From contig NW_024883027.1 of NCBI RefSeq assembly GCF_019059575.1, positions 87,206 to 151,205 of the forward strand: 64,000 nucleotides of DNA, in the 5' to 3' direction. The translations under genes were made by a program, and so were the position numbers. This document shows positions 10,090 through 42,589 of this stretch, piece by piece. The stretch's first letter is position 1. The number at the start of each line of letters is the position of its first letter. Origin of the DNA: Amphibalanus amphitrite. Lineage: Eukaryota; Arthropoda; Thecostraca; Balanomorpha; Balanidae. Under the pieces are notes generated by a model. It saw only the letters and a program-made list of their open reading frames with translations. It did not search any database and was not told where the DNA came from.

Positions 10090-10664
10090 ATTGATTTGTG
10101 CCGTGCACAAATCAGATGGGACTCATTTTGCACGTGCGCACGTGCAGGACGACGCTTCCAGATCTCGAGAACGGCCGGGCCGATTGCACTCAAATTCGGT
10201 ACACTTCTAGAGACCGATCAGAAGGGTGCCGTGCACAAGTCAGTTAGTATGTATTTGCATGTGTCACGGTTTGATTGCAACTGCACGTGCGCACGTGCAG
10301 GGGTCGCTCCCAGATCTTAATATTGACTGGGCCTATTGAGTTCAAATTTGGTACACCGCTAGAGACCGGCGAATAGGGTCCCAACTCCCATGCACAAGTC
10401 AATTGGACACAGCTTGCACGTGCGCACGTGCAGGATGACGCTTCCAGATCTCAAAAACGGCCGGGTCGATTGCACTCAAATTTGGCACACCGCTAGAGAC
10501 CGGTTAGTAGAGTGCAGTGCACGTCAGTTCGTAGCACACCCACTCCGGTCTGCACGTGCAAGGCTCATCCTCTCGTTTGGCGGCGGGCGTTTTTGCGGCG
10601 TTACAGAGGTGCTTGCTCAAACAACCTGCGGTCCCGCGATGCGGAGCCCAGCATCGCAGATGCT
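10090..10664 (+). mobile_element. Array element copy A (3' part only)
   Basis: Contains three palindromic subrepeats (TGCACGTGCGCACGTGCA or variants near 10128, 10279, 10414). The 3' module follows: the subterminal repeat TCAAACAACCTGCGGT and the terminal hairpin CAGCATCGCAGATGCTG ending near 10664. The 5' part of the unit is missing. A 30-bp spacer separates it from copy B. Confidence 0.7.
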
Positions 10665-11855
10665 GGTTTACAAATGTGATGGGTAACGGCGCAGCGTAAC
10701 CGCAGGTTGTTTGAAAAGACAAACACTATTCGTTAGAATTGTGTTTTTCTATTGAAAAACAACCGGAGCGGTCCTTCTCCGGGCTATGTTTGGCATGGTT
10801 GGCAGCGAATTGGGGCAACTTGATTGGGGCCTAAACGCGTCGCTCAATCTTCGTAAAAATTTCAGGGTACGGGCTCCCGGCGGTGATCTACCTGATGGCA
10901 CCGGTCGCTACTCGCTCAGAAATCTTTTGCGCGTGGCACGTGCAATTCCATTTTTCCCATAGTAAGTCAATGGGGCTTTGAGACACTTTTTGCGCGATCG
11001 CGAATGGCGGAAAAAATAGCCGTAGAAGGGGTGGTTTGGTTCCCACCGTCTCGTAGCCCACACGTTCAGGTGCACGCCCGTGTGCGCGGTGTACCCGTCA
11101 GAACTCATTAACTTGAGCTGCACGACTTTGAAGTTGAACTTTTTTCGCTCCCCATGTAAAGTCAATGGGCGTTTTTGCAGAGACATTTTCATTCGCTCAT
11201 TGTACAAAATTATATGATACGATTTTGTTTAAACTTGCAGGACTTGTTGAGAACAGGTCGCAGAACATGTTGTGATGCTTCTTTAAGCTGTGCAAATTCG
11301 TTTCTTCTTTTTAACCTCGTTTAAAAAAGAAAAAATTTAACATGGAAAGTCAATGGGAGCGTCTTTGTTGCTTAATAACTTTTTACAGTTGAGATATATT
11401 TAAGTGAAAAGTTGATAGGTTATACAAATTTTGATGCTCTTTCCAGTGATATATAGAACGTCATTGCACGTTGTGCCGTTTTCGAGAAATTTAGTAAAAA
11501 AGCACGACATTACCGAGATTTGAGCTCACACCTATTATGGCCTTGGCTCAGACAGTATACGAACAGGTGACAGGGATACCTCCCATAGAAGGATGCGACA
11601 CGAATTTAATGCTAAATATTAGCGGCCGGCCGCCGTGGGGACGTTTTTGCACGACTTATATCTCCGCAGCCACTGGACCGATACACTTGCGGTTTTTTGT
11701 GTGGGGTAGGGTATACCCTTCTTACAAGTATTTTACTATGCACGATGCATGCGGGTGACCCCTACTGCACGTGACACGTGTACAGCGGAGAGGTGTCACT
11801 TTTGTTGTAATGACAATACCACGGTAATTCCTGAGGAGATTCTGCTGAAACTACA

Positions 11856-11859
11856 CAAG
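11856..11859. repeat. Target-site duplication CAAG, left
   Basis: CAAG lies directly before the left LTR (TGTAGGCG...) and again directly after the right LTR (22297-22300). A 4-bp duplication fits a Ty3/Gypsy integrase. Confidence 0.8.
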
Positions 11860-12509
11860 TGTAGGCGTCTATCCCCGGCCGCTGGCGTCAGAGGCAAACG
11901 CCGAACTCGGAGCCAACCAAGCGTGTATCCAGCACAAGCAGACAACAAACAAATTGAAACGCCCTAGAAAGAAAAGACAAACAACTGTCACAATCCCGAC
12001 ACATACAAAGCCGGCACGAAATATCAAAACCCGTTATTAGAGAATGTGAAATAAAATAAACAGTAATTATCACGAAAGTTGAAACCCACCGTTCAAGCAG
12101 GCGCAATCCAAGCACATCTCGATCCTCGCCATGTCGCGGCGCACCGAATTCCCGCTCTGGACGCGACGGGGGCTCAACGGAAATTCGGCTGCTCTCTCAT
12201 TGGTCAGAATAAGCGGTTACCTGATTGGCTCTCGCGTGGCGCGCAGCTACATCATTGGACGAAATCATTACAGGAAGTCTAAAACTCTTCGGATAAGAAA
12301 TATGACACATAACTAAAGAAACATTGGTACCGATCAATATCAAATAATAAAATAGTCATTACAAATCAGTATCATAACTAAATAGCACTAAACACGCGAC
12401 AACAAACCAAGGACATTATTGCAGCGCAGGACGAATTTAGAGTTGCCACTTTCACTTCTGGTAGGCCCAGTATCCGCTCGCATAACATGTAAGCGGAAAT
12501 CCGCTTACA
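11860..12509 (-). repeat. 3' LTR of the Gypsy element
   Basis: 650 bp, starting TGTAGGCG and ending CTTACA on the plus strand. Read by eye it appears identical to 21647-22296, implying a young insertion. Confidence 0.93.
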
Positions 12510-12521
12510 CCCTTCCTCCCT
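12510..12521 (-). other. Polypurine tract of the Gypsy element
   Basis: Reads AGGGAGGAAGGG on the minus strand immediately upstream of the 3' LTR, the expected position for plus-strand DNA priming. Confidence 0.8.
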
Positions 12522-12861
12522 AACGCGAAGAAACTTCTCGATTATTTACACATACAAAACGCATCGACCTACGAACAAAGGAACTTTTTTTTTTTTTTTT
12601 TACTGGACGGCTAAACATGTTCGGTCTCAACTGAATAACTCCGTATTGCAGCTCAGCTCGTGCGCTTCTCCATTCGCTAGAGAACTACCTAGGTGCCCAT
12701 TGTACAGAGGTAACACTAAGGCTCGCTTGCAGCTGTTCTTACTACGATAGGAATCTCAAGTCAAGTTATCGCCCAATGTCATTGCCTTTCACCCAGTATT
12801 AAACATTAAAAACGACAGCAGCACACAGCAGCTCTGTGTGATAGGTACCCACAACGGAAAA

Positions 12862-13132
12862 TCACGGCGAATACCTGTCGGGAGGAATGACTACTCGTGT
12901 TGACCTACGCAATTCGGGACTGCGCATATCTGCGGTAACCTGAGTGTTCGCCACGTCGGGCGGCACCTCTGCTGCTCCAGTCGGAGCTGAACCTGCTATC
13001 GGTTCTGCGACTCCCTCTGGCGTCTCACGTGTCTCACGCGCTGTCTCTGTCTGAACTGGGAGTGTCTGCGGGGCGAAAGATATGGCGAACGGATTCAGCA
13101 GGGACAGGGCCGGCGGTCCTGAGTCGTCAAGA
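12862..13132 (-). CDS. C-terminal end of Gypsy pol, separated by an insertion
   Basis: This continues the pol reading frame downstream of the hAT-like insertion. It ends in LRRSTRVVIPPDRYSP, a basic and proline-rich tail common at the end of Gypsy Pol proteins, followed by a stop at 12862. The insertion plus its 8-bp duplication is 1,536 bp, a multiple of three, so the frame is the same as that of the main pol ORF. Because the insertion carries a stop, the main ORF terminates inside it and this tail is not translated with pol in the present copy. Confidence 0.7.
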
Positions 13133-14660
13133 CATAGACCCGGGAACAGGGGGGGCAGCGGGGGCGCTTGCCCCCCCAACTTGAGAGCCGAGGGGGCGGC
13201 GCCCCCTCAACATTGAGGCAGCGTGAAAGGATCTTTCCTCCCTTTTCCGGGCTTCTTTCCTTCTTATTTCCTTTATACATCTAAACATCAACACACGGCA
13301 TTTTCCTAGCCATCTGAATGGTTTCTGCTGATACAGTATCGATTTGACAACATCTACTAATTGCTATTGCCATCCCGCTTAGGTTTGGGCCTGGCCTTGG
13401 CCATAAGTTCGGCAGGCCAGATTTTATACTGGACCATTTTGAGTCAACTTTGAGAAATACATAACGTGCAACGGTGGTAAAATCGTTGTTATTATAGGTA
13501 TAACACAGTTTACCCGCTCCGGGTGTGAGGGAGGGGTGTGGGGCAATGAGTGCACTGACGTGGCGCCCTCGGAAGTCCGGTATGGGATTAAAGCTCAGCG
13601 ACACTAAGGGCTTGGTGTGGTGCCTTCGGCTATCGGTAGCACCCTCAGAATCACCGGCGTAGGGCCCACAGAGCCGCCGGTAAGGGGCCTTAAGAGGCAC
13701 TGGTGTGGGGCCGCCATGCAGGTGCCGGTGTGGTCGCTCAGAGGTGCTAGTGTGATTCTCTCAGAGTCGCCGGTGAGGGTCCTTACAGGCGTTGCTGTGG
13801 GCCCTTATAGACGCTGGTGTGGAGCCGTTACAGACGGATGGGGTCTTTATAGCTGATGATGCGAAGTTGCGAACCCTCTGGCCTCTACACGCCGGCAGCC
13901 GGCAGGGGGTTCTCAGTGACCGGCAAGGGGCCCTTAGGTCGGCATAAGAAGTCTTGTGGGGTCCTTTAGGACCAGCATGGTACTGTTAGACGCCAGTGGG
14001 GCCCTCAGGGCTCAGAGTCACCGGTGTGGGGCCCTCAAAATTCACCAGTGGGTGGCCTTTAGATGCGCAGGTGGTTGACTGTTGGGTCCTCAGAGCCACC
14101 GATATAGGACTTTAAAAGGCACTGGTGTAGACACTCAGAGTTGGGGGTGTGAAACGGTCAGAGATACCGGTGTGGGCCCTCATAGGCGCCGATGAGGGCC
14201 CCCACAATTGCCGTTATGGGACCCTCAGAAAAATAGGTAAGTGTTTGACAATCACAGGCGGGAAATTTCCCTAGAACTGGCCCCTCACTACCGGCCCCTC
14301 AGGCCGGTAAGAACTCTCAGAGACCAGTAACGGGCCTTTGGAGACCACCGAGGGGCCCTTAAAATCGGCAAGAGGCCCTCAGAAGCCGGCGTTGGGCCCT
14401 TATGGAGATCTAAGTGTGGTTATTTAGGGCCCATGAGGTGCTCTAACGAGCCCCATGGGGCTAGTCGAAATATGGCCATCGTTAACCCTCAGCGGTCAAA
14501 TGGCGCCGCAGGGCCTCTCGGACCCGAAGGTCCCTTTGAACCCGATGGGGGGGGGGGGTACGTGTCCCCTTAGACCCCTAGCTACGCCACTGCTTCATAT
14601 GCATCATGTCAGGTATTTTAGTCTCGCCCCCCCAACTTGAAAATCGTTCCCGGGCCCCTG
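13133..14660. mobile_element. hAT-like non-autonomous DNA transposon inside pol
   Basis: An 8-bp duplication, CGTCAAGA, flanks it (13125-13132 and 14661-14668). The termini are CATAGACCCGGGAAC on the left and, inverted, CAGGGGCCCGGGAAC on the right. An 8-bp duplication with CAGGGG-type ends is the hAT hallmark. At ~1.53 kb it has no transposase; the interior is a degenerate minisatellite. A CCCCCCCAACTTGA motif lies near both ends in the same orientation. Confidence 0.72.
13600..14440. repeat. Degenerate minisatellite rich in GGTGTGGGGCCCTCAGA
   Basis: About 25-35-bp units built on ACCGGTGTGGGGCCCTCAGA variants recur with spacing drift through most of the hAT-like insertion. The short ORFs here are by-products of the repeat. 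Confidence 0.6.
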
Positions 14661-17600
14661 CGTCAAGACTAGCGGCGTCAGCTGGTTGGCAACTAGGCCT
14701 ACCTTCACACTGCGCACCACTTACCCGCTGATTGTCACTGACACCATCCATCCTCCTTCGGCCTGTCGGAAAGGTCACGCCTGCTGCTGTCCCGACAGCC
14801 GGCTGTGGTCTCGCGGCGGGGTCCGCCCGTGAGACGGACGCTGTCGGTGCGGTCACCGGTGACTCACCTTCTCCGGTATCCACTCGAGGCTTCAACCTGT
14901 TGTGGTGTACGATGAGCGTAGACCTAGCTCCTTCTAGTCTGATCCTATAGTTCAGAGGACCGACCTGATCTACTACTACTGCTCTCTTCCAAGGACGCAA
15001 AAACTTGTAATACTGACCGCGCGGAACGATTCCCTTATGCAGATACACTTTGTCTCCGGGTAGGTAACTATTCTCATTTAGCTTTCTATCATAAATCTCC
15101 TTGTTCTTCTGATGACTTCTGTTCGAGTTCTCTAGTGCTACTTTGTGCAGAGCACGCAGATTGGTCTGCAGCCTCTCTAGATACTCCGTGATGGGTCGGG
15201 TCCTGCACCGAGTAGGACCGGCGTACTCGGCATCGGCGGGCAGCCTTGGCTCCCTGCCAAAAAGTACGCAGTACGGTGACACGCCGAGGGAGCGGTGCAC
15301 CTGACTGCGGAGCCCGAGCATCAAAAGGGGCAGGTGGATGTCCCAGTCTGAGTGCTCGTGATCCTCAAGGAATTTAGACAGCATACCAAGCACAGTACGA
15401 TTGATTCTTTCACAGATTGAATTACCCATCGGATGGAATGCCGTGGTATGTGACTGCTCTATCCCCAGTAACTGGCACGTGAGCTTCATAACTTCCCCGG
15501 TGAAGCAGCCACCCAAATCCGAATGGATCGTCTTTGGCACCCCATACCGAGACACAAACTCTCTGACAAACGCCTGAGCTACCTCAGTCGCCTCTTGTGT
15601 CTTCAACGGAATACACTCTACAAATCGCGAAAAATGATCGATAACTACGAGCAAGTGTCTGTGCCCCTGCGACGTCACTGGCAGGCCAGACAAAATGTCG
15701 AGCGCTACTACCTCCATGGGCGATGAGGCTGGCAGCTGGCCCAGGGACGCTCGCGGGGCGGGAACCGGCTTGTTCCGCTCGCCGCAGCGGTGACACGACT
15801 TACAGAACTTTTCTATATCTACAGCCATGCCGGGCCACCAGAACCTTAACCTAGCTTGAGCTAACAACTTATCACTAGCGAAATGACCTCCCGTGGGTCC
15901 GGCGTGCAGAGAAGTCAGCGCCCCTGAGATCAGACTCTTGGGCAGCACTACCTGTAGCTGATCAGAATCGCCAGGCCTTCTTCTGTACACGCGGAACAGA
16001 ACTCCGCCTACCAGTCGCAATCTGGACCACTGCGACAAGTATTTGCGACACGACTGGGGTAGATCCTTAGCTTTAGGCTTGGTTCCCGCGGAGACGCACT
16101 TCGATATTTCCGCGATATCCTCATCCTTGTCTTGCTCCGAGCGAATGTAGCTGGTCGACCAATCGTCTGACCTTACCTGAAAGCAGTATTCAGTCTCTGG
16201 GTCCGTCTGACATGACTGATCAGTCTGCTCGTCTGGTCTGCGGGAGAGAGCGTCTGGCACTGTGTGGAGGGCGCCTGGGCGATACTCGATGGTGAAGTGG
16301 AACTGAGACAAGATCTGGAACCAGCGGGCAAACATGCCAGTCGGGTTGCGGAAATTGAGCAGCCATCGGAGACTCGCGTGATCACTCCGTACTTTAAATT
16401 CCTTACCTTCCAGGTACGCAGAAAACTTTTGCACGAAGATCACTACCGCTAGCAGTTCTTTCTGAGTGGTACCGTAATTCATCTGCGATTTTGACAGCTT
16501 CTGACTCCCATACGCGATCACTTTCTCCACGCCACCCTGAACCTGTAGCAGCACGGCGCCCGCCTGGGTGTCAGAACTATCACAATCAAGAATAAAAGGA
16601 CCTGCGTCTCGGCTGAAATCGGGCAGCGTCAGCACTGGGGCTTCACTGAGGGCTTTGCGAAGCTGGTCGAACGAGAACTGCGCCTCCTCTGACCACTGGA
16701 ACTTCACGTCTTTCTGCAACAGCTTGAAGAGCGGTGCAGAGATGCTCGCAAAATTTTTGACAAATTTGCGCATGTAACCAGCCAGCCCTAGGAATGAGGA
16801 GAGCTGCTTGGCTGTCCGCGGAATCGGCCAGTCGCGCACTTTGCTCACACGGTCGGGGTCGAGAGACAAGCCACTCTCATCCACCACATGTCCCAAGAAT
16901 TTGACACTCGAACGGAACAGGGAGCACTTTTCCAGATTGATCGTGAGACCGGCTCGGTGGAGCCTGTCTAGAACTAGCTCGAGCTTCTCAAGTGTCTCCT
17001 CGAACGTCTTACCACCCAAACAAACATCATCAAAGTAGGAATGACACGTGCCCTTGGGAAGATCGCGCAAAACAATATCGAGCATGCGGGCGCAGCTAGC
17101 CGCGGCACCATTGAGTCCCATCGGGAGCCGAAGGTGCTGCCAAGCGCCGAACGGGGTGACGATAGTCGTTTTAGGACGATCCTCTTCTCTCACACCGATT
17201 TGAAAATAACACATGCGAAGATCAAGCACACAGAACATTGAATTTCCACCCAGGGAATCTAGAATCGTATCTATTCTGGGGACAGGATAAGCAGGCATCT
17301 TAGTCACAGCGTTAACCTTTCGGAGGTCAGCACAGATCCGGACTCGTCCATCTTTCTTTGCGACAAAGCATGCAGGACTACTCCAATATCCATTCGACTC
17401 TTCCAGAACCCCTAGATCCACCAAGCGTTGTATCTCGGCCCTTACCTTATCCTCCAGGAATGGTGGGACGCGATGGGGTGCTGAACGTATCGGCGGACTG
17501 TCACCTGTGTCGATGTGATGCTCCACCGCGGATGTGAAGCCCAACCGACCATCAAACATGTCACTATATTTGGTCAGCAGCTCGGTCACCTTCTCCTTCT

Positions 17601-18624
17601 GCTCCTTACTGAGGTCTGTGTCTGACAGGTCTATCTTTTCACGCCAATTGGGATCTGCGTCACCTGAAGGGACTGGAAACTCAGCCACGCCCACTTCCAG
17701 TCTACCGATCTCCGCACGCTTTGGGATCGTGACCGGCTCAGTTGTAATGTTTCTCACAAGGCACGGAACACTCTGACCGTTTACCTGCACCATGGAAGGA
17801 ACCAACTCGAGTCCCGGGACTTCAAGCAATGGCTCGCACAGTGCTGGCCCTCTGAAGTCGACGTTTGGAACAAAACCTGGAAAGAAAACCTCGTGTCCGG
17901 CCGGAACCGCGATGTCTCTCTGACAAATCACCTTACCCACCGAGAAGACTGAAGCGGAGATGGTTCTGACCATTTTCGCAGAGCTGAGGATCAGCTGACT
18001 CTTGGTGAGATCCAGAACACACGGGCACACGCCAAAGAACTCCAATCCCAACAAAACAGTGCAGTCAATCTGATCCGAAACATAGAATGGAACCACCACT
18101 ACTTCTCCAGCAATTTTAACGGCAATCTGTGTACGACCGATCAGTGGTAGGGGGTCCCTGCTAACCGTGTGTGCCACTGTGGCCGTAGTGAAAAGGGGAG
18201 GGGCCTTGGGGAGCACATCAAAAACGGATTTGTGAATGATATTAATGCTGCTGCCGGTGTCCAGCGTCACTGAACACGTCACGCCTCCCACATCAGCGTC
18301 AAATGTCATGTCAGCATTCAAGTGGACTGTCCTCTCATCTGCTCGGGCTGCAACGACTGGGCCATCCGGGGCGGCTGCAACGGCTGCGGCCGCTGGTCCT
18401 GTGGTCTGGCATCCCACTGATGTGGACCTGGTCCCCGCTGGAACCCTGAGACTGGGGTCCGCTGCTGCTCGGGTCTGGGGTCGGGGCCGGGCCCAGCCCG
18501 CTGGGGGTTTACCTGCTGCGTGCACATCCGGGCCAAGTGTCCTTTGGTCCCACACACATGACACGGCAGGTGCCTTTGCCGACACCGCGCCTGGTTGTGA
18601 CCGGGCCTCCCACAACAGAAGCAA
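14578..18624 (-). CDS. pol: Gypsy pol polyprotein (protease, RT, RNase H, integrase)
   Basis: The open frame is 1,348 codons. It begins without an ATG and overlaps the nucleocapsid frame, so it is expected to be reached by ribosomal frameshifting. The first ~100 residues are overlap. The aspartic protease motif LDTGSS is at residues 121-126. Reverse transcriptase follows, with its YFDD catalytic box. The RNase H region includes CDSSDTQAG and a terminal RRPD. The integrase has an HHCC-like zinc end (GHFASDK ... CKSCHRC). Its catalytic Asp is in VALDIL, the second Asp in HSDLGG and the Glu in ICERINRT. A GPY/F-like stretch (VGPLNYRI) closes the domain. All catalytic residues appear present. The last ~27 codons come from the hAT-like insertion, which truncates the natural C-terminus; the displaced tail lies at 12862-13132. 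Confidence 0.93.
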   Translation of the reverse strand: MLLLWEARSQPGAVSAKAPAVSCVWDQRTLGPDVHAAGKPPAGWARPRPQTRAAADPSLRVPAGTRSTSVGCQTTGPAAAAVAAAPDGPVVAARADERTVHLNADMTFDADVGGVTCSVTLDTGSSINIIHKSVFDVLPKAPPLFTTATVAHTVSRDPLPLIGRTQIAVKIAGEVVVVPFYVSDQIDCTVLLGLEFFGVCPCVLDLTKSQLILSSAKMVRTISASVFSVGKVICQRDIAVPAGHEVFFPGFVPNVDFRGPALCEPLLEVPGLELVPSMVQVNGQSVPCLVRNITTEPVTIPKRAEIGRLEVGVAEFPVPSGDADPNWREKIDLSDTDLSKEQKEKVTELLTKYSDMFDGRLGFTSAVEHHIDTGDSPPIRSAPHRVPPFLEDKVRAEIQRLVDLGVLEESNGYWSSPACFVAKKDGRVRICADLRKVNAVTKMPAYPVPRIDTILDSLGGNSMFCVLDLRMCYFQIGVREEDRPKTTIVTPFGAWQHLRLPMGLNGAAASCARMLDIVLRDLPKGTCHSYFDDVCLGGKTFEETLEKLELVLDRLHRAGLTINLEKCSLFRSSVKFLGHVVDESGLSLDPDRVSKVRDWPIPRTAKQLSSFLGLAGYMRKFVKNFASISAPLFKLLQKDVKFQWSEEAQFSFDQLRKALSEAPVLTLPDFSRDAGPFILDCDSSDTQAGAVLLQVQGGVEKVIAYGSQKLSKSQMNYGTTQKELLAVVIFVQKFSAYLEGKEFKVRSDHASLRWLLNFRNPTGMFARWFQILSQFHFTIEYRPGALHTVPDALSRRPDEQTDQSCQTDPETEYCFQVRSDDWSTSYIRSEQDKDEDIAEISKCVSAGTKPKAKDLPQSCRKYLSQWSRLRLVGGVLFRVYRRRPGDSDQLQVVLPKSLISGALTSLHAGPTGGHFASDKLLAQARLRFWWPGMAVDIEKFCKSCHRCGERNKPVPAPRASLGQLPASSPMEVVALDILSGLPVTSQGHRHLLVVIDHFSRFVECIPLKTQEATEVAQAFVREFVSRYGVPKTIHSDLGGCFTGEVMKLTCQLLGIEQSHTTAFHPMGNSICERINRTVLGMLSKFLEDHEHSDWDIHLPLLMLGLRSQVHRSLGVSPYCVLFGREPRLPADAEYAGPTRCRTRPITEYLERLQTNLRALHKVALENSNRSHQKNKEIYDRKLNENSYLPGDKVYLHKGIVPRGQYYKFLRPWKRAVVVDQVGPLNYRIRLEGARSTLIVHHNRLKPRVDTGEGESPVTAPTASVSRADPAARPQPAVGTAAGVTFPTGRRRMDGVSDNQRVSGAQCEGRPSCQPADAASLDAGARERFSSWGGETKIPDMMHMKQWRS

Positions 18625-18788
18625 GTACGGCCGCTGCTGGACACTGGGGAGAACGAGCGCTTACCTGCGGACGCTCCAGTCGCGAGAGTTTCAACTCCAG
18701 CTCCTGAACTTTCCGACGAAGTAGGTCTGTCTCGTCTGTGGCCGCTACCTGCCGAACCGTCTGGCTCGCTGCCACCTTCGCGGCGCAC
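18318..18788 (-). CDS. gag: Gypsy nucleocapsid with two zinc knuckles, separate frame
   Basis: This frame contains two CX2CX4HX4C knuckles, CFCCGRPGHNQARC and CHVCGTKGHLARMC. They are followed by a proline- and glutamine-rich tail. The nucleocapsid binds genomic RNA during particle assembly. It lies one step (-1) off the capsid frame upstream, and pol is a further -1 step away. Either two shifts are used or, more likely, a one-base indel separates capsid from nucleocapsid in this copy. The crossing would have to occur around 18640-18790. Confidence 0.8.
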   Translation of the reverse strand: MRREGGSEPDGSAGSGHRRDRPTSSESSGAGVETLATGASAGKRSFSPVSSSGRTCFCCGRPGHNQARCRQRHLPCHVCGTKGHLARMCTQQVNPQRAGPGPDPRPEQQRTPVSGFQRGPGPHQWDARPQDQRPQPLQPPRMAQSLQPEQMRGQST

Positions 18789-19276
18789 GAGAGGTTTCTC
18801 ACCTTTGCCACCGCACTGTCGAACGTCTGGATGCCCTCGCCTATTAGCGCTTGTTGATATGTCGGTGGCAGTGATTGGAGGAAGTAATTGTACAGCAAGG
18901 GGTCATGATCGGTATGTCGGGTGTCGGGAAATGCGCGACTGACTAGCCCTCGAAGCTTCACCACAAAAGCATCAAGGCTGTCATCTGTTGTGAGTCTCAA
19001 AGACCGGAGCTGGACCTGTGCCTCGACTTTGTCGCCGGAGGGGAAAGCCAGTTCCAATCTCTTGCACGCGTCGCCTACCTTCTTCTTGCACTCGGTCGGG
19101 AAGGCATCGTAGGCGTCCCTCGCAATTCCGGACAAGCACAGAGGCAGCAGAGCTACTTTTTTATCGTCATCCCATCCTTGTAGGACTGCAAACGTGTCAA
19201 AGTCCGCGATGAAACGAGAGACACTGCCCTTACCGGCGAAAGACGGCAGACCGACCGATAGTGACTGCGTCGCCAT
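18509..19276 (-). CDS. gag: Gypsy gag, capsid part
   Basis: From the ATG at 19276 (MATQSLSVGLPSF) it reads a Ty3/Gypsy capsid-like helical protein (FIADFDTFAVLQGWDDDKK, LPLCLSGIARDAYDAF, YFLQSLPPTYQQ). A coiled-coil stretch follows (TDLLRRKVQELELKLSRLE). After about 18665 the frame loses homology because the zinc knuckles continue in another frame. The last ~55 residues are therefore probably not authentic. Confidence 0.85.
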   Translation of the reverse strand: MATQSLSVGLPSFAGKGSVSRFIADFDTFAVLQGWDDDKKVALLPLCLSGIARDAYDAFPTECKKKVGDACKRLELAFPSGDKVEAQVQLRSLRLTTDDSLDAFVVKLRGLVSRAFPDTRHTDHDPLLYNYFLQSLPPTYQQALIGEGIQTFDSAVAKVRNLSCAAKVAASQTVRQVAATDETDLLRRKVQELELKLSRLERPQVSARSPQCPAAAVLASVVGGPVTTRRGVGKGTCRVMCVGPKDTWPGCARSR

Positions 19277-20025
19277 GCTGAATGTCAAATTTGGCACACT
19301 TCCAACGGAAAAAAAAAATCGGTGATGTAAGGGGAACCGCAGAGTCGTTAATACGGAGAGTAATTCAACAAGTTACGCTAAAATTAAATGCTCAAATTAC
19401 TGCGAGAAAGGCGATGGAAAGGACGTTTTACAATGGAAAAAGAAATCGTAGAGCCAGCATTACCTCGTTACAGTGAGACCGCAACACTTTACCAGCAACC
19501 AACATCACACCTTCCCAAACCAAGCACATACATGACACACAGTATCAATGAAACACCCTTGTCACCACTCATATCCCCAACCACCAAATGTTTATGTCCA
19601 CGTCAGCCCAGTTTGGCACACCTCAGCTTCAAATGTCCACGTGCGTCTTCATAAGGGGGGGGGGGGGAAGGGTAGTGCGCGCATTGTCACCGGAGAATAC
19701 CACGCACGGCGTCCTCGGCAGGGGGGGGGGAGCACCTGAGTCTCCGGGGGGTCAGAAGGTGCTCGTGTCCGCAACAGGGGGGAGTGCACTCGTCCCAGTC
19801 TCCATCGGGAGTGGCCGGTAGTCCTCGGACCGCGAGGCAGGATTACCCGCTCCAACAATGGTCAAAGGGCGATCGCTTAGATCGGGTGACACAAACGTTC
19901 AGGCACATCCCGCTATCGGATTCAGGCACATCCCGCTATCGGATAAGTCCGAACTGGATAGGTCTCACCGGCGTGTAGACGCTGAGCAGTCAGCTGTCGC
20001 GCTCGGAGAATCTTATACTGACGCC
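19277..20025 (-). other. Gypsy 5' leader, with a 23-bp tandem duplication
   Basis: Untranslated leader between gag and the nested element. A perfect 23-bp direct duplication lies at 19898-19920 and 19921-19943 (TTCAGGCACATCCCGCTATC plus GGA). G-rich tracts occur at 19657-19668 and 19721-19730. Confidence 0.6.
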
Positions 20026-20029
20026 AGAT

Positions 20030-21548: not shown

Positions 21549-21626
21549 AGATGTAGGCCGTCGCGCTCGGAGAATCCTACTGACGCCAGATGCAGGCCGT
21601 CAAGCTTAGGCCGTCGAGCTCAGAGC

Positions 21627-21644
21627 ATCCCACCGCTGCCACCA
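21627..21644 (-). other. Primer-binding site matching tRNA-Leu
   Basis: On the minus strand TGGTGGCAGCGGTGGGAT begins two bases after the 5' LTR. It is complementary to the 3' end (TCCCACCGCTGCCACCA) of animal tRNA-Leu(AAG)-type molecules, from my knowledge of that tRNA. Confidence 0.8.
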
Positions 21645-21646
21645 GA

Positions 21647-22296: not shown

Positions 22297-22300
22297 CAAG
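22297..22300. repeat. Target-site duplication CAAG, right
   Basis: Matches 11856-11859. Confidence 0.8.
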
Positions 22301-30782: not shown

Positions 30783-31036
30783 CAGAGGGGTGTTCACGGG
30801 CACCGCACACTGCTGCGTGCGCTGTGTGCGGTGCGTCCAGCAGGCGTGGGGGTAGGGGATGGGTAGGCGGTTCTGACGTCACGGCTGCGTGCGGTGGACG
30901 GTCCGCTGTGGCCAGTCCCGACCGGCCACAGCGATCGCTGTGTGCGGTGACGGAAGGCTGACGTAGGGACGCAGTGGGCGGAGCTTGGAGGCTATGTGCG
31001 GTCCGACCGCACACAGGGCCCGTGAACAGCCCTCTG
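30783..31036. mobile_element. 254-bp MITE with CAGAGGG ends
   Basis: Inverted ends are CAGAGGGGTGTTCACGGGC and CAGAGGGCTGTTCACGGGC. Interior CCGCACACAG and GTGTGCGGT inverted motifs are also present. Ends of this type occur in hAT MITEs. No 8-bp duplication is visible at this site. Confidence 0.65.
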
Positions 31037-31465
31037 ATCTATGGTATGGTACCATCGGGGGACCGGCCGCCGTCGGCACCATTTCGGGACTTTGCATCGC
31101 AATAAAAGGCTTATTTACAATTGAAAATGGACTAGCGAGAGTCGTTATGGAATCAGAATGTGATGCTCTACAAAACTAGGCTATTTTCATTGTGATGGCA
31201 TCACAGACTACACCGCTAAACCCAATAAAGCAGATTTATGTCGCGTCATCGATGATTACATATAATGTATCATTCTTTGATATATATGTAGTCGGGTCTT
31301 TCAGCTGCGTCCCTCCCCTCCCTCGCCGCGCCGGCGGGTCGGCCATCCGTGGCTTGCCGCCCGCCGGCTGCTGGCCGGTCAGCTGGCCGGTCAGCTGGTC
31401 GCCCGCGGCTGTCGGTGCAGTGCGGGATGCCTACTTGCGGGGGGGGGGGGGCCGTCGTGGCGGCG

Positions 31466-33223: not shown

Positions 33224-33889
33224 CGGCGGCCCGGGTGGACTGGGCGAGCAGTGAGTTGGGGAGCGCTGCGCTGTCGGTGCTCTAGTTTGTATTGCGTTCG
33301 CATGATACGGCTTGAGCCAATACAGAGTGAACTGATTGAGCTGAGCAAGTCTTTACATACATTGAAAAGTAAAGCACTTTTTACTGCATCTACGGTGAGA
33401 TGCTAGATAAAATTTATGGTCTACCTAATGGTACCCATTACTTAACAATTAAGTGAATCATTTCGTCGCTAAACTCTCGTAAATTCGTATGTCCGCCTCA
33501 CTATGGAGTTTGGACCGTAACGTATGGCCTTTGCTCAGACAGTATACGAACAGGTGACGGGGATACCTCTAATAGAAGGATGCGACACGATTTTACTGCT
33601 AAATAGCGGCCGGCCGCCGTGGGGACGTTTTTGTACGACTTATATCTCGGCAACCACTGGGCTGATACACGTGCGGTTTTTTTTGTGTGGGGTAGCTTTT
33701 TCCCTTCTTTCACATAGTGTGCTACTCTCGATGCATATGGGTGACCCCTAACGCACGTTCCACGTGCAAAGCCAAGAGGTGCCTGTTTTGTAATAAGCGC
33801 AATAGCTCGCGGTAATTACTGGGCCGATTGCGCTAAAACTTGGCATGGAGGTAGACACTTTCCAGGCGATGCATTTCCATGTGTCTTGG

Positions 33890-34560
33890 TAGGGGTGCAA
33901 CTGCACGTGCGCACGTGCAGGGTGACGCTTCCAGATCTCGAGAACGGCTGGACCGATTGTGTTCAAATTTGGCATAACGCTTGATACCGATCAGTAGGTT
34001 GCAGTCATTTAGTATGTATTTCCATGTGCCACGATTGGGGTGCAACTGCACGTGCGCACGTGCAGGGTGACGCTTCCAGATCTCGAGAACGGCCGGGCCG
34101 ATTGAGTTCAAATTTGGTACACCGCTAGAGACCGATTAGTAGGGTGCCGTGCGCAAGTCAGTTTGGACCCATCTTGCACGTGCGCACGTGCAGGGTGACG
34201 CTTCCAGATCTCAAGAACGGCTGGACCGATTGCACTCAAATTCGGCAAACAGCTAGAGATCGATCAGTAGGGTGCCGTGCACAAGTCAGTTAGTATGTAT
34301 TTCCATGTGTCACGGTTGAGATGCAACTGCACGTGCGCACGTGGAGGGGTCGTTTCAAGATCTTGAAAACGGCTGGGCCGATTGAGCTCGAATTTGGTAC
34401 ACCGCTAGGGACCGGCGAATAGGGTCCCATGCACAATGCAATTGGACACAGCTTGCACGTGCGCACGTGCAGGGTGTCGCTTCCAGATATCGAAAACGGT
34501 CGGGTCGATTGCACTCAAATTTGGCACACCGCTATAGACCGGCGAATAGGGTGCCGTGCA
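33890..34560 (+). repeat. Palindromic ~130-bp subrepeat block (representative)
   Basis: Five units at intervals of about 125-155 bp carry TGCACGTGCGCACGTGCA, an 18-bp perfect palindrome with two CACGTG E-boxes (one unit is slightly mutated). The palindrome is followed by GGGTGACGCTTCCAGATCTC and a conserved GGCCGATT...CAAATTTGG stretch. Equivalent blocks are at 10120-10500, 22345-22860, 29190-29700, 38510-38860, 40080-40590 and 41950-42470. Short ORFs here are repeat by-products. Confidence 0.85.
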
Positions 34561-34705
34561 CGTCAGTCCGTAGCACACCGACTCCGGTCTGCACGTGCAA
34601 GGCTCATCCTCTCGTTTGGCGGCGGGCGTTTTTGCTGCGTTTACAAAGGTGCTTGCTCAAACAACCTGCGGTCCCGCGATGCGCAGCCCAGCATCGCAGA
34701 TGCTG

Positions 34706-35120
34706 GTAACCGCAGGTTGTTTGAAAAGACAAACACTATTCGTTAGAATTGTGTTTTTCTATTGAAAAACAACCGGAGCGGTCGTTCTCCGGGCTATGTT
34801 TTGCAAGTCTGGCAGCGAATCGAGACATCTTGATTGGGGCCTAGACGAAATGTACAATCTTCGTAAAAAGTTCAGTGTATAGGCTCCCGGAGGCGATCTA
34901 CCTTATGGCATCGGTCGCTACTCGCTTAAAACCTCGTGGCACGTGGCACGTGCGATTCCATTTTCCCCGTGTTAAGTGAACGGGGTTTTGGACACTTTTT
35001 GCGCGATCGCCAATAGCGGGAAAACGAGCCAAGGAAGAGGTGGTTTTCTTCCCAGCATTTTATGGCAAACACGTTTGGGTACACGCTAGTGTGCGCTGTA
35101 TACCCCTCAGAATCTCGGAA
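34706..35120 (+). mobile_element. Array element copy G (5' fragment)
   Basis: Starts at the standard 5' end and stops after CAGAATCTCGGA, where copy H begins. Confidence 0.75.
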
Positions 35121-36598
35121 TAACCGCAGGTTGTTTGAAAAGACAAACACTATTCGTTAGAATTGTGTTTTTCTATTGAAAAACAACCGGAGCGGTCCTT
35201 CTCCGGGCTATGTTTTGCAAGTCTGGCCGCGAATTGGGGCAACTTGGGTCAGGCCTAAACGAATCGCTCAATCTTCGTAAAAATTTCAGGGTATGGGCTC
35301 CCGGAGGCGATCTACCTGATGGCACCGGTCGCTACTCGCTTAAAACCTCGTGGCACGTGGCACGTGCGATTCCATTTTCCCCATGTTAAGTCAACGGGGT
35401 TTTGGACACTTTTTGCGCGATCGCCAATAGCGGGAAAACGAGCCAAGAAAGAGGTGGTTTTCTTCCACGCATGTTATGGCAAACACGTTTGGGTACACGC
35501 TAGTGTGCGCCGTATAGCCCTCAGAACTTCGTAACGTGTCTTTGCACGAGGTCAAAGTTGAACTTTTTTCGCTCCCCATGTTAAGTCAATGGGCGTTTTT
35601 GCAGAGAGTTTTTCATTCGCTCATTGTACAAAATTATATGATACGATTTTGTTTAAACTTTCAGGACTTGTTGAGAAAAGACCATAGAACATGTTGTTAT
35701 GCTTCGTTAAGCTGTCAGAATTCGTTTGTTCTTTTTGAGCTCGTTTAAAGAAGATTTTTTTTAACATGCAAAGTCAATGGGAGCGTCTTTGCTGCTTTAT
35801 AACTTTTTACGTTATAGATATATTTCAGTGAAAAGTTGATAGGTTATACAACTTTTGATGCTCTTTCCAATGATACATACAACTTTATTGCACGTGGTGC
35901 CGTTTTTGAGAAATATAGTAAAAAAGCACGACATTACCGAGATTTGAGCTCAGACCTATATCGTTACGGTGTCAGGCGGACACGAGGACAGGTGGCGCCG
36001 CCGCCGCCCGCATAGCGGCGGGAATGTGAACTAACCTGTTTACCATCTATGGTATGGTATGGTACCATCGGGGGACCGGCCGCCGTCGGCACCATTTCGG
36101 GACTTTGCATCGCAATAAAAGGCTTATTTACAATTGAAAATGGACTAGCGAGAGTCGTTATGGAATCAGAATTTGATGCTCTACAAAACTTGGCTATTTT
36201 CATTGTGATGGCATCACAGACTACACCGCTAACCCCAATAAAGCAGATTTATGTCGCGTCATCGATGATTACATATAATGTTTCTTTGATATATATGTAG
36301 TCGGGTCTTTCAGCTGCGTCCCTCCCCTCCCTCGCCGCGCCGGCGGGTCGGCCATCCGCGGCTTGCCGCCCGCCGGCTGCTGGCCGGTCAAGTGGCCGGT
36401 CAGCTGGTCGCCCGCGGCTGTCGGTGCAGTGCGGGATGCCTACTTGCGGGGGGCCGTCGTGGCGGCGGCCCGGGTGGACTGGGCGAGCAGTGAGTTGGGG
36501 AGCGCTGCGCTGTCGGTGCTCTAGTTTGTATTGCGTTCGCATGATACGGCTTGAGCCAATACAGAGTGAACTGATTGAGCTGAGCAAGTCTTTATATA

Positions 36599-37976
36599 TG
36601 TTACAGGCCGTATGAAAACTCAGTCCGTTTGCAAAAGGCCTGGCCCGATTCAGGCCGTTTGCAAACGGCCTGGACAGCCCAGTCAGTATGCAAACGGTCT
36701 GAAAAGTCAGGCCGTTTGAATACGGGCTGAAATTCCAGGCTGTATGCAAACCACCTGAAATTTCAGGCCGTTTGGAAACCGTCTAGACCGTATGACAACT
36801 TTCCAGACACCAGGCCGTTTGCAAACGGTCTAGGCATTTTGAAAACAATCTGGTCTGCATGAAGCTATAGCTGGACAATGTTGAGTTTGTTGAAGCACGA
36901 CCGTTAATGATATTACATGGCACCATGAAATCCTGAGGTGCATTCGGCATCCCGAAAAATATTGTCACTAGGATATTATCCGTCGGAAAATTATTGGTGA
37001 GCGCCTATCTTCAGCATGTCTCGTTATCGCGATACCGTTCGTGATCCCCGATAATTCTCGCTAGTCCCGGATAATTCTCCGTGATTTTTCCGGATGCCGA
37101 ATGCAGGCCTGGTCAGTAAGAGATAAGCAGAACTGAGGCCCGGCCCGTACAGCGCCCGGGCCCTGTTTCACCGTCACGACGCTGCGCGCGCTGGAAGCTA
37201 CGGTATACCAGCGGCGTGTTAGGTTTCCGTGGAAATATAACAATCTCGGACGCCTCGCAATGCTGAAGCGTCGAGCCGAATTCGTCTCGAACGCCCACGA
37301 ACGCCGCACCAGCGCGCGCGCCGTCCGGGTGGTGAAACAGGGCCCCGGTCGACCCGGGCTTCCCCCGGACTTAAAGTTTCGCCTTCCACCGCAATGGTCA
37401 AGTATTGCCGGCGTACGCCACCGGCCAGCCGCCGGCGGTCGACCGGGCGCGGTGAGGACTCTAATGTGAACTCTGATGTCCATTGTGCGTTCCTGCGTTT
37501 TATGCCGCAAAATAATCGGTGAGTCTTGTAGTGATACGTTTCACCAGACTTCACCAGTAGCGGCTTCACCAGGCTCCATGAACTGGATGGCCGTAAGCAG
37601 GCGGACCGTGAACTTGTATAATTAGTAATATTGTCGGAAAACGGCCGGGTCGAGCATCTGCACAGTAAGAAAATGTTCGACGTAGACGAGTCATTCGGCA
37701 TGGAATGCGCAAGCATTGACATGGATGCAACCTGATCATCGACCAACCTGGATCCATTAAGTTATCTTCAGAGGCTGTTGTACTTCGCCAGACCGTTTGA
37801 AAACTGACTAGGCCGTTTTCAAACTGTCTAGGCCGTTTCAAACTGCCTAGGCCGTTTTCATACGGCCTGATATTTCAGGCGGTTTGCAAACGGCCGGCTT
37901 TTTCAGGCCGTTTTCAAACGGCCTAACTGGGCCAGGCCGTTTGCAAACGGACTGGGTTTTCATACGGTCTGTAACA
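36599..37976. mobile_element. Palindrome-rich TIR element (TATA duplication)
   Basis: The ends are TGTTACAGGCCGTATGAAAA and TGTTACAGACCGTATGAAAA, inverted. TATA is duplicated at 36595-36598 and 37977-37980. Clusters of palindromes such as CAGGCCGTTTGCAAACGGCC fill both subterminal regions (36640-36835 and 37790-37960). The GC-rich centre (37110-37480) has open frames on both strands but no recognisable transposase. Its architecture parallels that of 20030-21548. Confidence 0.75.
36939..37105. mobile_element. Small MITE, GCATTCGGCATCC family
   Basis: TGCATTCGGCATCCCGAAAA at the left and the inverted TGCATTCGGCATCCGGAAAA at the right, 167 bp apart. Relatives are at 42752-43313 and 47081-47303. 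It is nested inside the palindrome-rich element. Confidence 0.6.
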
Positions 37977-38876
37977 TATACATTGAAAAGTAAAGCACTT
38001 TTTACTGCATCTACGGTGAGATGCTAGATAAAATTTATGGTCTACCTAATGGTACCCATTACTTAACAATTAAGTGAATCATTTCGTCGCTAAACTCTAG
38101 TAAATTCGTTTGTCCGCCTCACTATGGAGTTTGGACCGTAACGTATGGCCTTTGCTCAGACAGTATACGAACAGGTGACGGGGATACCTCCCATAGAAGG
38201 ATGCGACACGATTTTACTGCCAAATAGCGGCCGGCCGCCGTGGGGACGTTTTTGTACGACTTATATCTCGGCAACCACTGGGCTGATACACGTGCGGTTT
38301 TTTGTGTGGGGTAGCTTTTTCCCTTCTTTCACATAGTGTGCTACTCTCGATGCATATGGGTGACCCCTAACGCACGTTCCACGTGCAAAGCCAAGAGGTG
38401 CCTGTTTTGTAATAAGCGCAATAGCTCGCGGTAATTACTGGGCCGATTGCGCTAAAACTTGGCATGGAGGTAGACACTTTCCAGGCGATGCATTTCCATG
38501 TGTCTTGGTAGGGGTGCAACTGCACGTGCGCACGTGCAGGGTGACGCTTCCAGATCTCGAGAACGGCTGGACCGATCGTGTTCAAATTTGGCATAACGCT
38601 TGATACCGATCAGTAGGTTGCAGTCATTTAGTATGTATTTCCATGTGCCACGATTGGGGTGCAACTGCACGTGCGCACGTGCAGGGTGACGCTTCCAGAT
38701 CTCGAGAACGGCCGGGCCAATTGTGCTCAGATTTGGCACACCGCTAGAGATCGCGTAGTAGGGTGTGTTGCACAGGTCTGCTGGGCCCCAGGTTGCACGT
38801 GCGCACGTGCAGGGTGACGCTTCCAGATCTCAGGAACGGCTGGGCCGATTGCATTCAAATTCGGCACACCTTTAGA

Positions 38877-40747
38877 GTAACCGCAGGTTGTTTGAAAAGA
38901 CAAACACTATTCGTTAGAATTGTGTTTTTCTATTGAAAAACAACCGGAGCGGTCGTTCTCCGGGCTATGTTTTGCAAGTCTGGCAGCGAATTGGGGCAAC
39001 TTGGTAGGGGCCTAGACGAAATGTACAATCTTCGTAAAAAGTTCAGTGTATGGGCTCCCGGAGGCGATCTACCTTATGGCACCGGTCGCTACTCGCTTAA
39101 AACCTCGTGGCACGTGGCACGTGCGATTCCATTTTCCCCGTGTTAAGTCAACGGGGTTTTGGACACTTTTTGCGCCATCGGGAATGGCGGAAAAACGAGT
39201 CAAGAAAGGGGTGGTTTTCATCCCAGCATTTTATGGCAAACACGTTTGGGTACACGCTAGTGTGCGCTGTATACCCCTCAGAATCTCGGAACGTGTCTTT
39301 GCACGAGGTCAAAGTTGGAATTTTGCTGTGTCCCATGTTAAGTCAATGGACGGCGATGTCGAGACTTTGCAGAGACATTTTCATTCGATCTTTGTACAAA
39401 ATTTTAGAGATAGATTTCGCCCAAACTCTTATATCTTGTAGAGGAAAGAGCATAGTACTTGCTGGTATGCTTCGTTAAGGTGGCAAAACTCATTTTTTCT
39501 TTTAAAGTTAATTTGAAATTTAAAATTTTTAACATGGAAAGTCAATGGGAGCGTCTTTATTTCTCTATAACTTTTATCTTTAGTAAGATGTATAGGTGAA
39601 AAGTTAATATAATATACAACTTTTGATGCTCTTTCCACTGATGCATTGGACGTCACTGCACGATGTGCCGTTTTTAAGAAAAGCTGTAAAAATTCAGGGC
39701 TCGACTGTGACTTGAACCCAACCACATTAGAGTATACGAACAGGTGACGGGGATACCTCCCGTGTGCGGATGCGACACTGATTATTGCTAAATATTAGCA
39801 TTCGGCCGCCTTGGGGGCGCCTTGCAAAGCTTCTATCTCCACAACTACTTGACCAATTCACTCGCGGTCTTTTGTGTGGGATAGCTTCTTCCTTTCTTAC
39901 ACGTAGTGCGCTATTCTCGATGCGTATGGGTGACCCCTAATGCACGTGCCACGTGCAAAACGATGAGAAGTCAGTTCAGTAACAAGTCTAATAACTCTGT
40001 AGTTAGTTTGCCGATTGCGCTGGTACTTTGCATGGATGTTGGCACGCACCCGGCAATGCATTTCCATGTGTCACGTTTGGGGTGCAGCTGCACGTGCGCA
40101 CGGGCAGGGTGACGCTTCCAGATCTCGAGAACGGCCGGGCCGATTGTGATCAAAGTTGGCACACCGCTAGGGATCGGCTAGTAGGGTGCCGTGCACAAGT
40201 CAGATGGGACCCAGTTTGCACGTGCGCACGTGCAGGCTGACGCTTCCAGATCTCAAGAACGGCTGGGCCGACTGTGCTCAAAATTGGCATACCGCTAGAG
40301 ACTGGTTAGTAGTGTGCCGTGCACAAGTCAGTTAGTATGTATTTTCATGTGCCACGGTTGGGGTGCAGCTGCACGTGCGCACGGGTAGGGGTCGTTTCCC
40401 GATCTTGGAAACGGCTGGGCCGATTCAGATTAAATTTGGTACATCGCTAGAAACCGGCGAATAGAGTGCCGTGCACAAGTCAATTGGGACCCAGGTTGCA
40501 CGTGCGCACGTGCAGGGTGTCACTTCCAGATCTCGAAAACGGCCGGGTCGATTGCACTCAAATTTGGCAAACCGCTAGAGACCGGTTAGTAGAGTGCAGT
40601 GCACGTCAGTTCGTGACACACCAGCTCCGGGCTGCACGTGCAAGGCTCATCCTCTCGTTTGGCGGCGGGCGTTTTTGCGGCGTTACAGAGGTGCTTGCTC
40701 AAACAACCTGCGGTCCCGCGATGCGGAGCCCAGCATCGCAGATGCTG
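38877..40747 (+). mobile_element. Array element copy I, full length and uninterrupted
   Basis: The cleanest unit, 1,871 bp. It starts TAACCGCAGGTTGTTTGA. The subterminal repeat TCAAACAACCTGCGGT is the exact complement of bases 3-18 of the unit. Hairpins CCGCGATGCGG and CAGCATCGCAGATGCTG follow at the 3' end. No ORF for a Rep-helicase exists, so it is non-autonomous. A start-proximal inverted repeat pairing with a subterminal one, followed by a 3' hairpin, fits Helentron/Helitron2-derived elements. Confidence 0.75.
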
Positions 40748-42589
40748 GTAACCGCAGGTTGTTTGAAAAGACAAACACTATTCGTTAGAATTGTGTTTTT
40801 CTATTGAAAAACAACCGGAGCGGTCGTTCTCCGGGCTATGTTTTGCAAGTCTGGCAGCGAATCGAGACATCTTGATTGGGGCCTAGACGAAATGTACAAT
40901 CTTCGTAAAAAGTTCAGTGTATAGGCTCCCGGAGGCGATCTACCTTATGGCATCGGTCGCTACTCGCTTAAAACCTCGTGGCACGTGGCACGTGCGATTC
41001 CATTTTCCCCGTGTTAAGTGAACGGGGTTTTGGACACTTTTTGCGCGATCGCCAATAGCGGGAAAACGAGCCAAGGAAGAGGTGGTTTTCTTCCCAGCAT
41101 TTTATGGCAAACACGTTTGGGTACACGCTAGTGTGCGCTGTATACCCCTCAGAATCTCGGAACGTGTCTTTGCACGAGGTCAAAGTTGGAATTTTGCTGT
41201 GTCCCATGTTAAGTCAATGGACGGCGATGTCGAGACTTTGCAGAGACATTTTCATTCGATCTTTGTACAAAATTTTAGAGATAGATTTCGCCCAAACTCT
41301 TATATCTTGTAAAGGAAAGAGCATAGTACATGCCGTTATGCTTCGTTAAGCTGGCAGAAATCGTTTTTTCTAATAAAGTTCGTTTGAAAATGAAAATTTT
41401 TAACATGGAAAGTCAATGGGAGCGTCTTTGTTGCTTAATAACTTTTTACGTTACAGATATATCAAAGTGAAAAGTTAATAAAACATACAACTTTCGATGC
41501 TCTTTCCAATAATGTATAGAACGTCACTGCACGATGTGCCGTTTTTAAGAAAAGTTGTAAAAAAGCAGGGCTCGACTGTGACTTGAACCCAACCACATTA
41601 GAGTATACGAATAGGTGACGGCGATACCTCCCGTGTGCGGATGCGACACTGATTATTGCTAAATATTAGCAGTAGGCCGCCTGTGGGGTGCCTGTACAAA
41701 CCTTATATCTCTGCAACCACTGGACCGATTCACTCGCGGTCTTTTGTGTGGGATAGCTCCTTCCTTTCTTACACGTAGTGTGCTACTCTCGATGCGTATG
41801 GGTGACCCCTAATGCACGTGCCACGTGCAAAACGAAAAGAAGTCAGTTCAGTAACAAGTCTAATAACTCTGTAGTTAGTTTGCCGATTGCGCTGATACTT
41901 GGCATGGTTGTAGGCACCCGCCGCGCAATGCATTTCCATGTGTCACGGTTGGGGTGCCGCTGCACGTGCGCACGGGCAGGGTGACGCTTCCAGATCTCGA
42001 GAACGACTGGGCCGATTGTGATCAAAGTTGGCACACCGTTAGGGCTCGGCGAGTAGGGTGCCGTGCACAAGTCAGATGGGACCCAGTTTGCACGTGCGCA
42101 CGTGCAGGCTGACGCTTCCATATCTCAAGAACGGTTGGACCGACTGTGCTCAAATTTGGCATACCACTAGAGACTAGTTAGTAGGGTGCCGTGCACAAGT
42201 CAGTAAGTATGTATTTTCATGTGCCGCGGTTGGGGTGCAGCTGCACGTGCGCACGTGTAGGGGTCGTTTCCCGATCTTGGAAACGGCTGGGCCGATTCAG
42301 ATTAAATTTGGTACATCGCTAGAAACCGGCGAATAGAGTGCCGTGCACAAGTCAATTAGGGCCCAGGCTGCACGTGCGCACGTGCAGGGTCACGCTTCCA
42401 GATCTCGAAAACGGCCGGGTCGATTGCACTCAAATTTGGCACACCGCTATAGACCGGCGAATAGGGTGCCGTGCACGTCAGTCCGTAGCACACCGACTCC
42501 GGTCTGCACGTGCAAGGCTCATCCTCTCGTTTGGCGGCGGGCGTTTTTGCTGCGTTTCCAAAGGTGCTTGCTCAAACAACCTGCGGTCC
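40748..42589 (+). mobile_element. Array element copy J, 3' hairpin missing
   Basis: Follows copy I directly and is very similar to it. It ends just after the subterminal CAACCTGCGGTCC at 42589, where unrelated sequence begins. This is the right edge of the array. Confidence 0.75.

Follow-up and report, generated by a model that had tools for sequence, protein, structure and literature searches.

An array of non-coding units on one strand

We analysed a 64,000-nucleotide stretch of the genome of the barnacle Amphibalanus amphitrite (RefSeq assembly GCF_019059575.1, 807.55 Mb in 2644 contigs), which corresponds to positions 87206-151205 of contig NW_024883027.1 (here C1530) and which we call the window; coordinates without a contig name are window positions. 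Between 10098 and 42589 the window contains eleven copies or fragments of a single non-coding repeat family, all on the + strand, which we designate A, B, X, D, C', E, F, K, G, H and J in their order along the DNA (twelve pieces, as a long terminal repeat (LTR) retrotransposon splits B). The 18-base 5' start of the family, TAACCGCAGGTTGTTTGA, has nine exact copies in the window, all in + orientation, and its inverted partner has seven. With up to three mismatches there are 16 matches including both arms, compared to a mean of 0.01 in 100 shuffles.

Three of the units are complete without a large interruption by the LTR element: E (27182-29858; 2677 bp, with a compensatory G-C pair in its terminal hairpin), F (29859-34706, which contains other inserts) and H (38878-40748; 1871 bp), which we use as the reference. 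B has an exact 5' end at 10697, is broken after 11859 by the LTR element, and resumes at 22298-23012 with a complete 3' end. Four units have an exact 5' end but are cut short: D (23148-23934) near position 787, where unrelated DNA follows; C' (26384-27181) at position 798, after a G and with an exact joint to E; G (35121-38877), which has an inverted-repeat element inside, at H position ~1579; and J (40749-42589) directly after the 3' subterminal arm, so that its hairpin is missing. K (34707-35120) is a 5' fragment of 414 bp, identical to the start of J. Only 3' parts are present in A (10098-10666; H positions 1309-1871, with a complete 3' end, after which come 30 bp of other DNA) and X (23013-23147; an extra 135-bp 3' end, H positions ~1738-1871, which abuts D). 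Complete 3' ends stand directly before 5' ends at 23147/23148, 29858/29859, 34706/34707 and 40748/40749, exact 5' ends directly follow truncated copies at 27181/27182, 35120/35121 and 38877/38878, and they follow other DNA at 10696/10697 and 26383/26384. The units contain internal tandem repeats of ~128 bp and ~280 bp.

An earlier reading of the window (the sequence-only reading) had described about ten copies in one orientation, several exact abutments, unit starts that also follow truncated copies and unrelated DNA, and internal tandem repeats, and we find all of these. Its array of units joined end to end over 10090-42589 is real and starts near 10098, but is interrupted by the 10.4-kb LTR retrotransposon (11860-22297) and by 2.45 kb of unrelated DNA (~23935-26383).

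The LTR retrotransposon inside B is complete-looking, with reverse transcriptase, RNase H and integrase on the - strand, and its 651-bp LTRs are 100% identical, with a CAAG repeat at its borders; it is a young insertion. The gene at 14578-18660 is part of this retrotransposon and was discarded as a coding sequence of the array. Three stretches present in F and G but absent from E (30785-31036, 31466-33222 and 36599-37975) are bounded by inverted repeats (for example CAGAGGGGTGTTCACGGG and CCCGTGAACAGCCCTCTG) and are other inserted elements. In a Pfam scan of all six frames of 27182-34706 and 23148-27181 there was no match with E <= 0.001, the one weak match (DUF5535, E = 0.0034) being below its cut-off, and so we rejected the idea of coding remains in these parts of the array. 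Elsewhere in the window there is one open frame that matches a glycosyl hydrolase family 2 enzyme (50835-52916, - strand), one that matches a Mab-21 domain protein (62326-63732, + strand), and a transfer RNA gene at 44284-44356 (- strand).

Element ends and terminal hairpin

The units run from TAACC to CTGG. In unit H, the 5' terminus with its inverted-repeat arm lies at 38878-38895, the 3' subterminal arm TCAAACAACCTGCGGTCC at 40699-40716, and a terminal hairpin at 40730-40748, all on the + strand. The 5' inverted repeat begins 2 nt from the 5' end and is internally palindromic (ACC-GCA-GGT). The sequence-only reading took the 3' arm to be the exact complement of the 5' end, about 40 bp before the 3' end; instead, 16 of 18 bases are complementary (GGACCGC.. 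versus TAACCGC..), and the arm stops 32 bp short of the 3' end. In addition to the 7-bp-stem hairpin given by the same reading, the last 19 nt of the unit can form a hairpin with an 8-bp stem and a GCA loop, flush with the 3' end; it is this second structure that DNA folding picks and whose stem covaries. Where two units abut, both arms are predicted to pair around the hairpins, giving one structure with a 16-bp stem.

The hairpin sequence CCRGCATCGCAGATGCYGG has 1608 matches in the genome (898 + 710) and none in the control. At the variable pair of the stem, the 100 copies listed of these 1608 have A-T in 79 cases, G-C in 17, G.T in 4, and A.C in none. The stem covaries in this way among genomic copies, with the proviso that the listed copies are related, so the 17 G-C pairs are not 17 independent events.

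Class membership and the search for a Rep partner

The units had been identified as Helentron/Helitron2-like, and their anatomy fits the HINE/Helitron2 type closely: the inverted repeats are asymmetric, with the 3' one subterminal, there is a hairpin near the 3' end, the units carry internal tandem repeats and stand head to tail, and the parts scanned have no transposase coding. Less favourable to the assignment is that the TT target of Helentrons was not seen, the base before the 5' end being G, A or T in the few non-element flanks read, and that no Rep-helicase partner was found. The base after a complete 3' end is T in three clear host cases. As regards target-site duplication, no direct repeat was seen at the edges of the C'-J cluster, where J is truncated, while two ladders do contain flank repeats of 10-153 bp (see below). 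We rejected a canonical Helitron (Helitron1; 5' TC, 3' CTRR, hairpin 10-12 nt inside), given the TAACC and CTGG ends and the flush hairpin, and a cut-and-paste transposon with symmetric terminal inverted repeats and a target duplication of fixed length, given the asymmetric arms and the many exact head-to-tail joints without spacer (871, see below).

The genome has 148 matches to the Rep domain PF14214, the best of them in open frames of up to 1960 codons, but none in the part checked belongs to an element with these ends. None of the 23 Rep matches on contigs C1-C31 is within 100 kb of a 3' arm among the arms listed, as judged by eye. DNA upstream of or between the genes of five Rep families (L054-L058) contains only 2-mismatch matches to the 11-base arm core, none of which extends to the arm. 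A Rep partner may be among the remaining matches, extinct, or outside the assembly. Viral contigs were excluded as its source, as the 18-mer has no match there. An array of Rep genes on contig C2217 was also excluded: its only similarity to the units is in 128-bp internal repeats (~70%), and the junctions we inspected have no matching termini.

The Helitron Rep matches on contigs C2217, C173 and C64 follow one another at intervals of 11-17 kb, and tandem arrangement may thus extend to the autonomous Helitrons of this genome. Between the Rep genes on C2217 (9001-18000) lies a different array of ~1.5-kb units, whose 128-bp internal repeat is the one similar to ours (~70% identity).

5' ends outnumber 3' ends genome-wide

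The exact 5' end occurs 3407 times in the genome (1891 + 1516) and its reversed control not at all, which bears out the earlier view that it is a real terminus. Exact 3' arms number only 1876 (1057 + 819; control 0). Allowing one mismatch raises this to 1944 (1094 + 850; control 5), and because it adds only 68 arms, with the 5' end counted as exact only, decay does not appear to hide the missing 3' ends. Unequal decay is also unlikely to have caused the 5' excess, because the 5' and 3' arms have a common 16-bp core. Exact joints between a 3' end and a 5' end, in which GATGCYGG is followed by TAACCGCAGGTTGTTTGA without a spacer, number 871 (498 + 373; control 0).

To see how the ends are spaced we used contigs C1-C13, whose listings are complete, and paired their 94 5' ends and 58 3' arms by script. 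Consecutive 5' ends on the same strand are separated by less than 6 kb in 76 intervals, of which 34 contain an exact 3' arm and 42 do not. Among those with an arm, 25 have a gap value of 0-2 (where 1 is exact abutment). Those without one fall into 22 intervals of 18-244 bp and 20 of at least 797 bp, some of which may contain a mutated arm. A long gap between ends on C7 was also set aside: the 5 kb read there contains a retroelement-like open frame and no unit sequence.

Many genomic copies have a perfect start and an early stop, some at 18-250 bp, followed by another perfect 5' end in the same orientation; of such 5'-anchored ladders, the most interesting property of the family, the sequence-only reading gave no more than a hint. 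Pairs of 5' ends 18-48 bp apart occur in the same orientation at 30 places (at a few of which foreign or flank bases intervene) and in inverted orientation at none in the genome. In five small loci that we read, 5' fragments of 18, 36, 40+40, 45, and 74+45 bp lie in differing host and element contexts. Two ladders, read by eye, contain repeated flanking DNA. On C9 a host flank recurs (153, 15, 10 and 15 bp) after 5' fragments of 32, 74, 32 and 74 bp, and these flank repeats precede a row of three 2055-bp units. The first two units of this row agree at 2054 of 2055 positions, and the 578 bp seen of the third are identical as well. The repeated flanks on C7 are 98 bp of host DNA and 38 bp of element DNA.

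Longer-range order is also present. Seven units (120, 68, 1659, 1822, 320, 924 and 1868 bp), each with an exact 5' end, make up the 6.78-kb higher-order repeat at locus L059 (C16:250101-257200), whose 120-bp mini-element consists of 34 bp of the 5' end joined to 86 bp of the 3' end. We had considered the 6.8-kb period on C16 as a possible coding element, but it is this higher-order repeat, as judged from one complete period and the beginning of the following one.

Premature stops tend to follow a G in the joints read

From the loci read we collected the distinct 40-bp contexts immediately before 5' ends. The 57 contexts comprise 3 canonical 3' ends, 31 truncated elements, and 23 others (host DNA, flank repeats, a 3' end plus extra bases, or unplaced). 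By their last ten bases the 31 truncated contexts reduce to 30, two of which are one site in different units. The last base before the new 5' end is G at 20 of these 30 breakpoints (background 0.265, p = 5e-6), and at 17 of 26 when four near the normal end are dropped (p = 4e-5); G is followed by T in the element at 7 of 30 (p = 0.005). The normal 3' end likewise finishes in G, and T follows it in the exact joints. These p-values are indicative only, since two of the 30 share a site and the loci, a small and non-random set, were partly picked because they hold ladders.

Kinship of units and a second locus on the same contig

Across approximately the first 430 columns of their alignment, window units differ from each other by 3-18%. 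Over its whole 414 bp, K matches the start of J without a difference, its next closest relative in the window being H (95.7%), and the exact match between the K and J regions extends to 436 bp, as 22 bp more come from the conserved 3' end of the unit before. K is thus a recent 5'-anchored fragment of a J-type copy, though J need not be its donor because two copies elsewhere (L006 and L007) differ from K by a single base. Six truncated copies of at least 100 bp that are joined directly to a longer neighbor can be tested for kinship. In two of them the neighbor is identical and is closer than any other copy compared (L051:2378, 0 versus 5 mismatches to the next; L053:4576, 0 versus 1). Local re-start would therefore account for some truncated copies but not all, and we dropped the idea that array neighbors are in general each other's closest relatives, which is true for some only.

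A second array, 107 kb away on the same contig (C1530:15201-24600), contains several of the same units in the order F, H, G, M, where the window has F, K, G, H, J. The part of F at 31169-34706 matches C1530:15201-18737 with one homopolymer indel and no substitution (3538 versus 3537 bp); H is identical to C1530:18738-20608 (1871 of 1871 bp), and G to C1530:20609-24365 (3757 of 3757 bp). Between F and G there is a full H at the second locus but the 414-bp K in the window, and after G there is M at the second locus but H and J in the window, in each case with exact 5' borders. M is a chimera, differing from E at 28 positions in its first 236 bp (12%) but at only 6 in the next 2000 (99.7% identical). 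As far as their sequences tell, gain or loss of complete or truncated units has outpaced point mutation in the two arrays. The two loci are either duplicates or two haplotypes placed in one contig.

Possible origin of the arrays

We lean towards the interpretation that the family is a rolling-circle element, non-autonomous and of the HINE/Helitron2 type, and that new units are added to its arrays at the 5' ends of copies already resident. A Rep-type nuclease would nick between G and TAACC, and the free 3' end would prime copying of the element. The copy would stop at the terminal hairpin, giving a complete unit, or too early and preferentially after a G, giving a truncated one, and its 3' end would then be linked to the T that begins the resident copy. 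Either the resident copy itself could be the donor, in a local re-start, or a different copy inserted at this 5' end. As the simplest extension of what is known from Helraiser, new copies would usually land or re-start at the resident 5' end, which is itself a cleavage site, and complete and premature products would therefore stack upstream of it. Unequal recombination would then probably spread blocks as higher-order repeats. The proposal draws on the precision of the 5' ends, their single orientation at short spacing, the 5' excess, the G bias in the joints read, the hairpin covariation and the unit differences between near-identical arrays; Rep itself, nicking, the direction of synthesis and resealing are steps that we postulate to connect these.

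More tentatively, the arrays might be satellite DNA made by abortive rolling-circle starts, with Rep firing repeatedly at resident 5' ends, cutting early after a G, and resealing in place. The ladders of 5' fragments, from 18 bp to kilobases, would then be a fossil record of initiation and termination, and the process would be recent or continuing, since the two arrays have different sets of units although no substitution separates the units that they share.

Several observations weigh against growth at resident 5' ends. The immediate neighbor is not the closest copy in four of the six testable truncated copies (for K it is J, and for three there are closer copies elsewhere). T directly after the premature stop is not enriched (10 of 30 breakpoints, p = 0.29), and the breakpoints come from a small, non-random set of loci in which one site, present in different units, accounts for two of the 30. 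The different contents of the slot between F and G could reflect either insertion or loss of a unit. The part of the 148 Rep matches that we checked includes no Rep-helicase element with these ends. Finally, the ladders L051 and L052 repeat 10-153 bp of upstream flank between their 5' ends, which counts against simple nick-and-rejoin because that process alone would not yield such repeats; they look like template switching, in which the copying strand jumps back to just upstream of the nick.

Nested insertion, in which new elements landed inside older ones and truncated copies are the left halves of the interrupted elements, would account for the new 5' ends that come after truncated copies, for three breakpoints that go on with TAA and so resemble an incoming end, and for X and A as orphan right halves. 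It predicts left and right halves in equal numbers, however, whereas exact 5' ends exceed exact 3' arms by 3407 to 1876; on many contigs fragments of only 18-74 bp are followed by another 5' end, and for K, whose sequence is that of the start of J, the window contains no right half. The surplus of 5' ends argues against nested insertion as the sole cause, and we regard it as quite improbable. A somewhat better case can be made that unequal crossing-over or replication slippage produced the array like any ordinary satellite, a transposase having played no part once the first insertions were made: the 6.78-kb block of seven units starts again on C16, three 2055-bp units stand in a row on C9, and M is chimeric. 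But crossing-over copies existing junctions, and would not easily make many different breakpoints all joined to the same 5' base or a preference for G at them. Simple unequal crossing-over as the only process is therefore unlikely, although very probably it acts on top of the main process.

It is also improbable that the arrays are an artefact of mis-joined repeats, with the two C1530 loci being two haplotypes in one contig. Repeats of this kind are hard to assemble, our judgement is made from the assembly alone, and identical blocks do lie 107 kb apart on one contig; on the other hand, ladders occur on many contigs, in differing contexts where read, in one orientation, and with a base preference at their joints. 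If the two loci are haplotypes, the unit differences between them are polymorphisms, which would support activity of the element.

Formation of tandem arrays by Helitrons and failure of their termination have so far been studied experimentally with a reconstructed bat element. The barnacle genome, with its thousands of exact 5' ends, hundreds of joints and approximately thirty premature stops, offers natural data on initiation and termination sites, and may show how a rolling-circle transposon can turn directly into satellite DNA with higher-order repeats.

Comparison with known systems

Tandem or abutting Helitrons are already known (PMC4778049, PMC5876387, PMC5148889). We found no description of ladders in which 5' fragments are each joined exactly to a further 5' end among the titles and abstract openings covered by our literature search, which included few subscription papers.

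The non-autonomous Helentrons HINE and DINE-1 are reported to have palindromic subterminal inverted repeats of 12-15 bp located 2-4 nt from the 5' end, a 3' palindrome, internal tandem repeats and no coding capacity (PMC4067079). The barnacle element is similar, with a 16-bp, internally palindromic repeat 2 nt from the 5' end, a 3' hairpin, tandem repeats and no coding in the parts scanned. It differs in that its 3' arm is 32 nt from the end rather than 38-60, its hairpin is flush with the 3' end rather than 8-35 bp away, no TT target was seen in its flanks, and no Rep partner was found (PMC4067079). It also resembles the Helitron2 elements FoHeli of Fusarium, which have asymmetric terminal inverted repeats, a 3' arm ~20-40 bp from the end, hairpins with a GAA triloop at the 5' end, and joined-end forms. 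FoHeli elements, by contrast, have a known Rep-Hel gene, and one tandem insertion was reported for them, as against 871 exact joints and ladders of truncated copies here (PMC5148889). Helitron-2 of Drosophila virilis likewise has many truncated copies, which have mainly retained the 5'-most 928 bp; the accessible account of it does not describe ladders joined exactly to further 5' ends (PMC3833285).

For the bat elements Helraiser and Helibat, the 5' end is required but the 3' end and hairpin are not strictly so. The 3' hairpin of Helraiser serves as terminator, yet it may be bypassed or pre-empted; read-through and premature truncation both occur, precise head-to-tail circles are formed, and in bats copies are inserted directly beside others (PMC4778049, PMC5876387). 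Some premature ends of Helraiser have CTTG next to T, which is again a G followed by T, as in the barnacle joints (PMC4778049). The canonical ends of Helraiser are different, 5' TC and 3' CTAG, and its truncated copies lie at new host sites, whereas those of the barnacle element are stacked on resident 5' ends (PMC4778049, PMC5876387).

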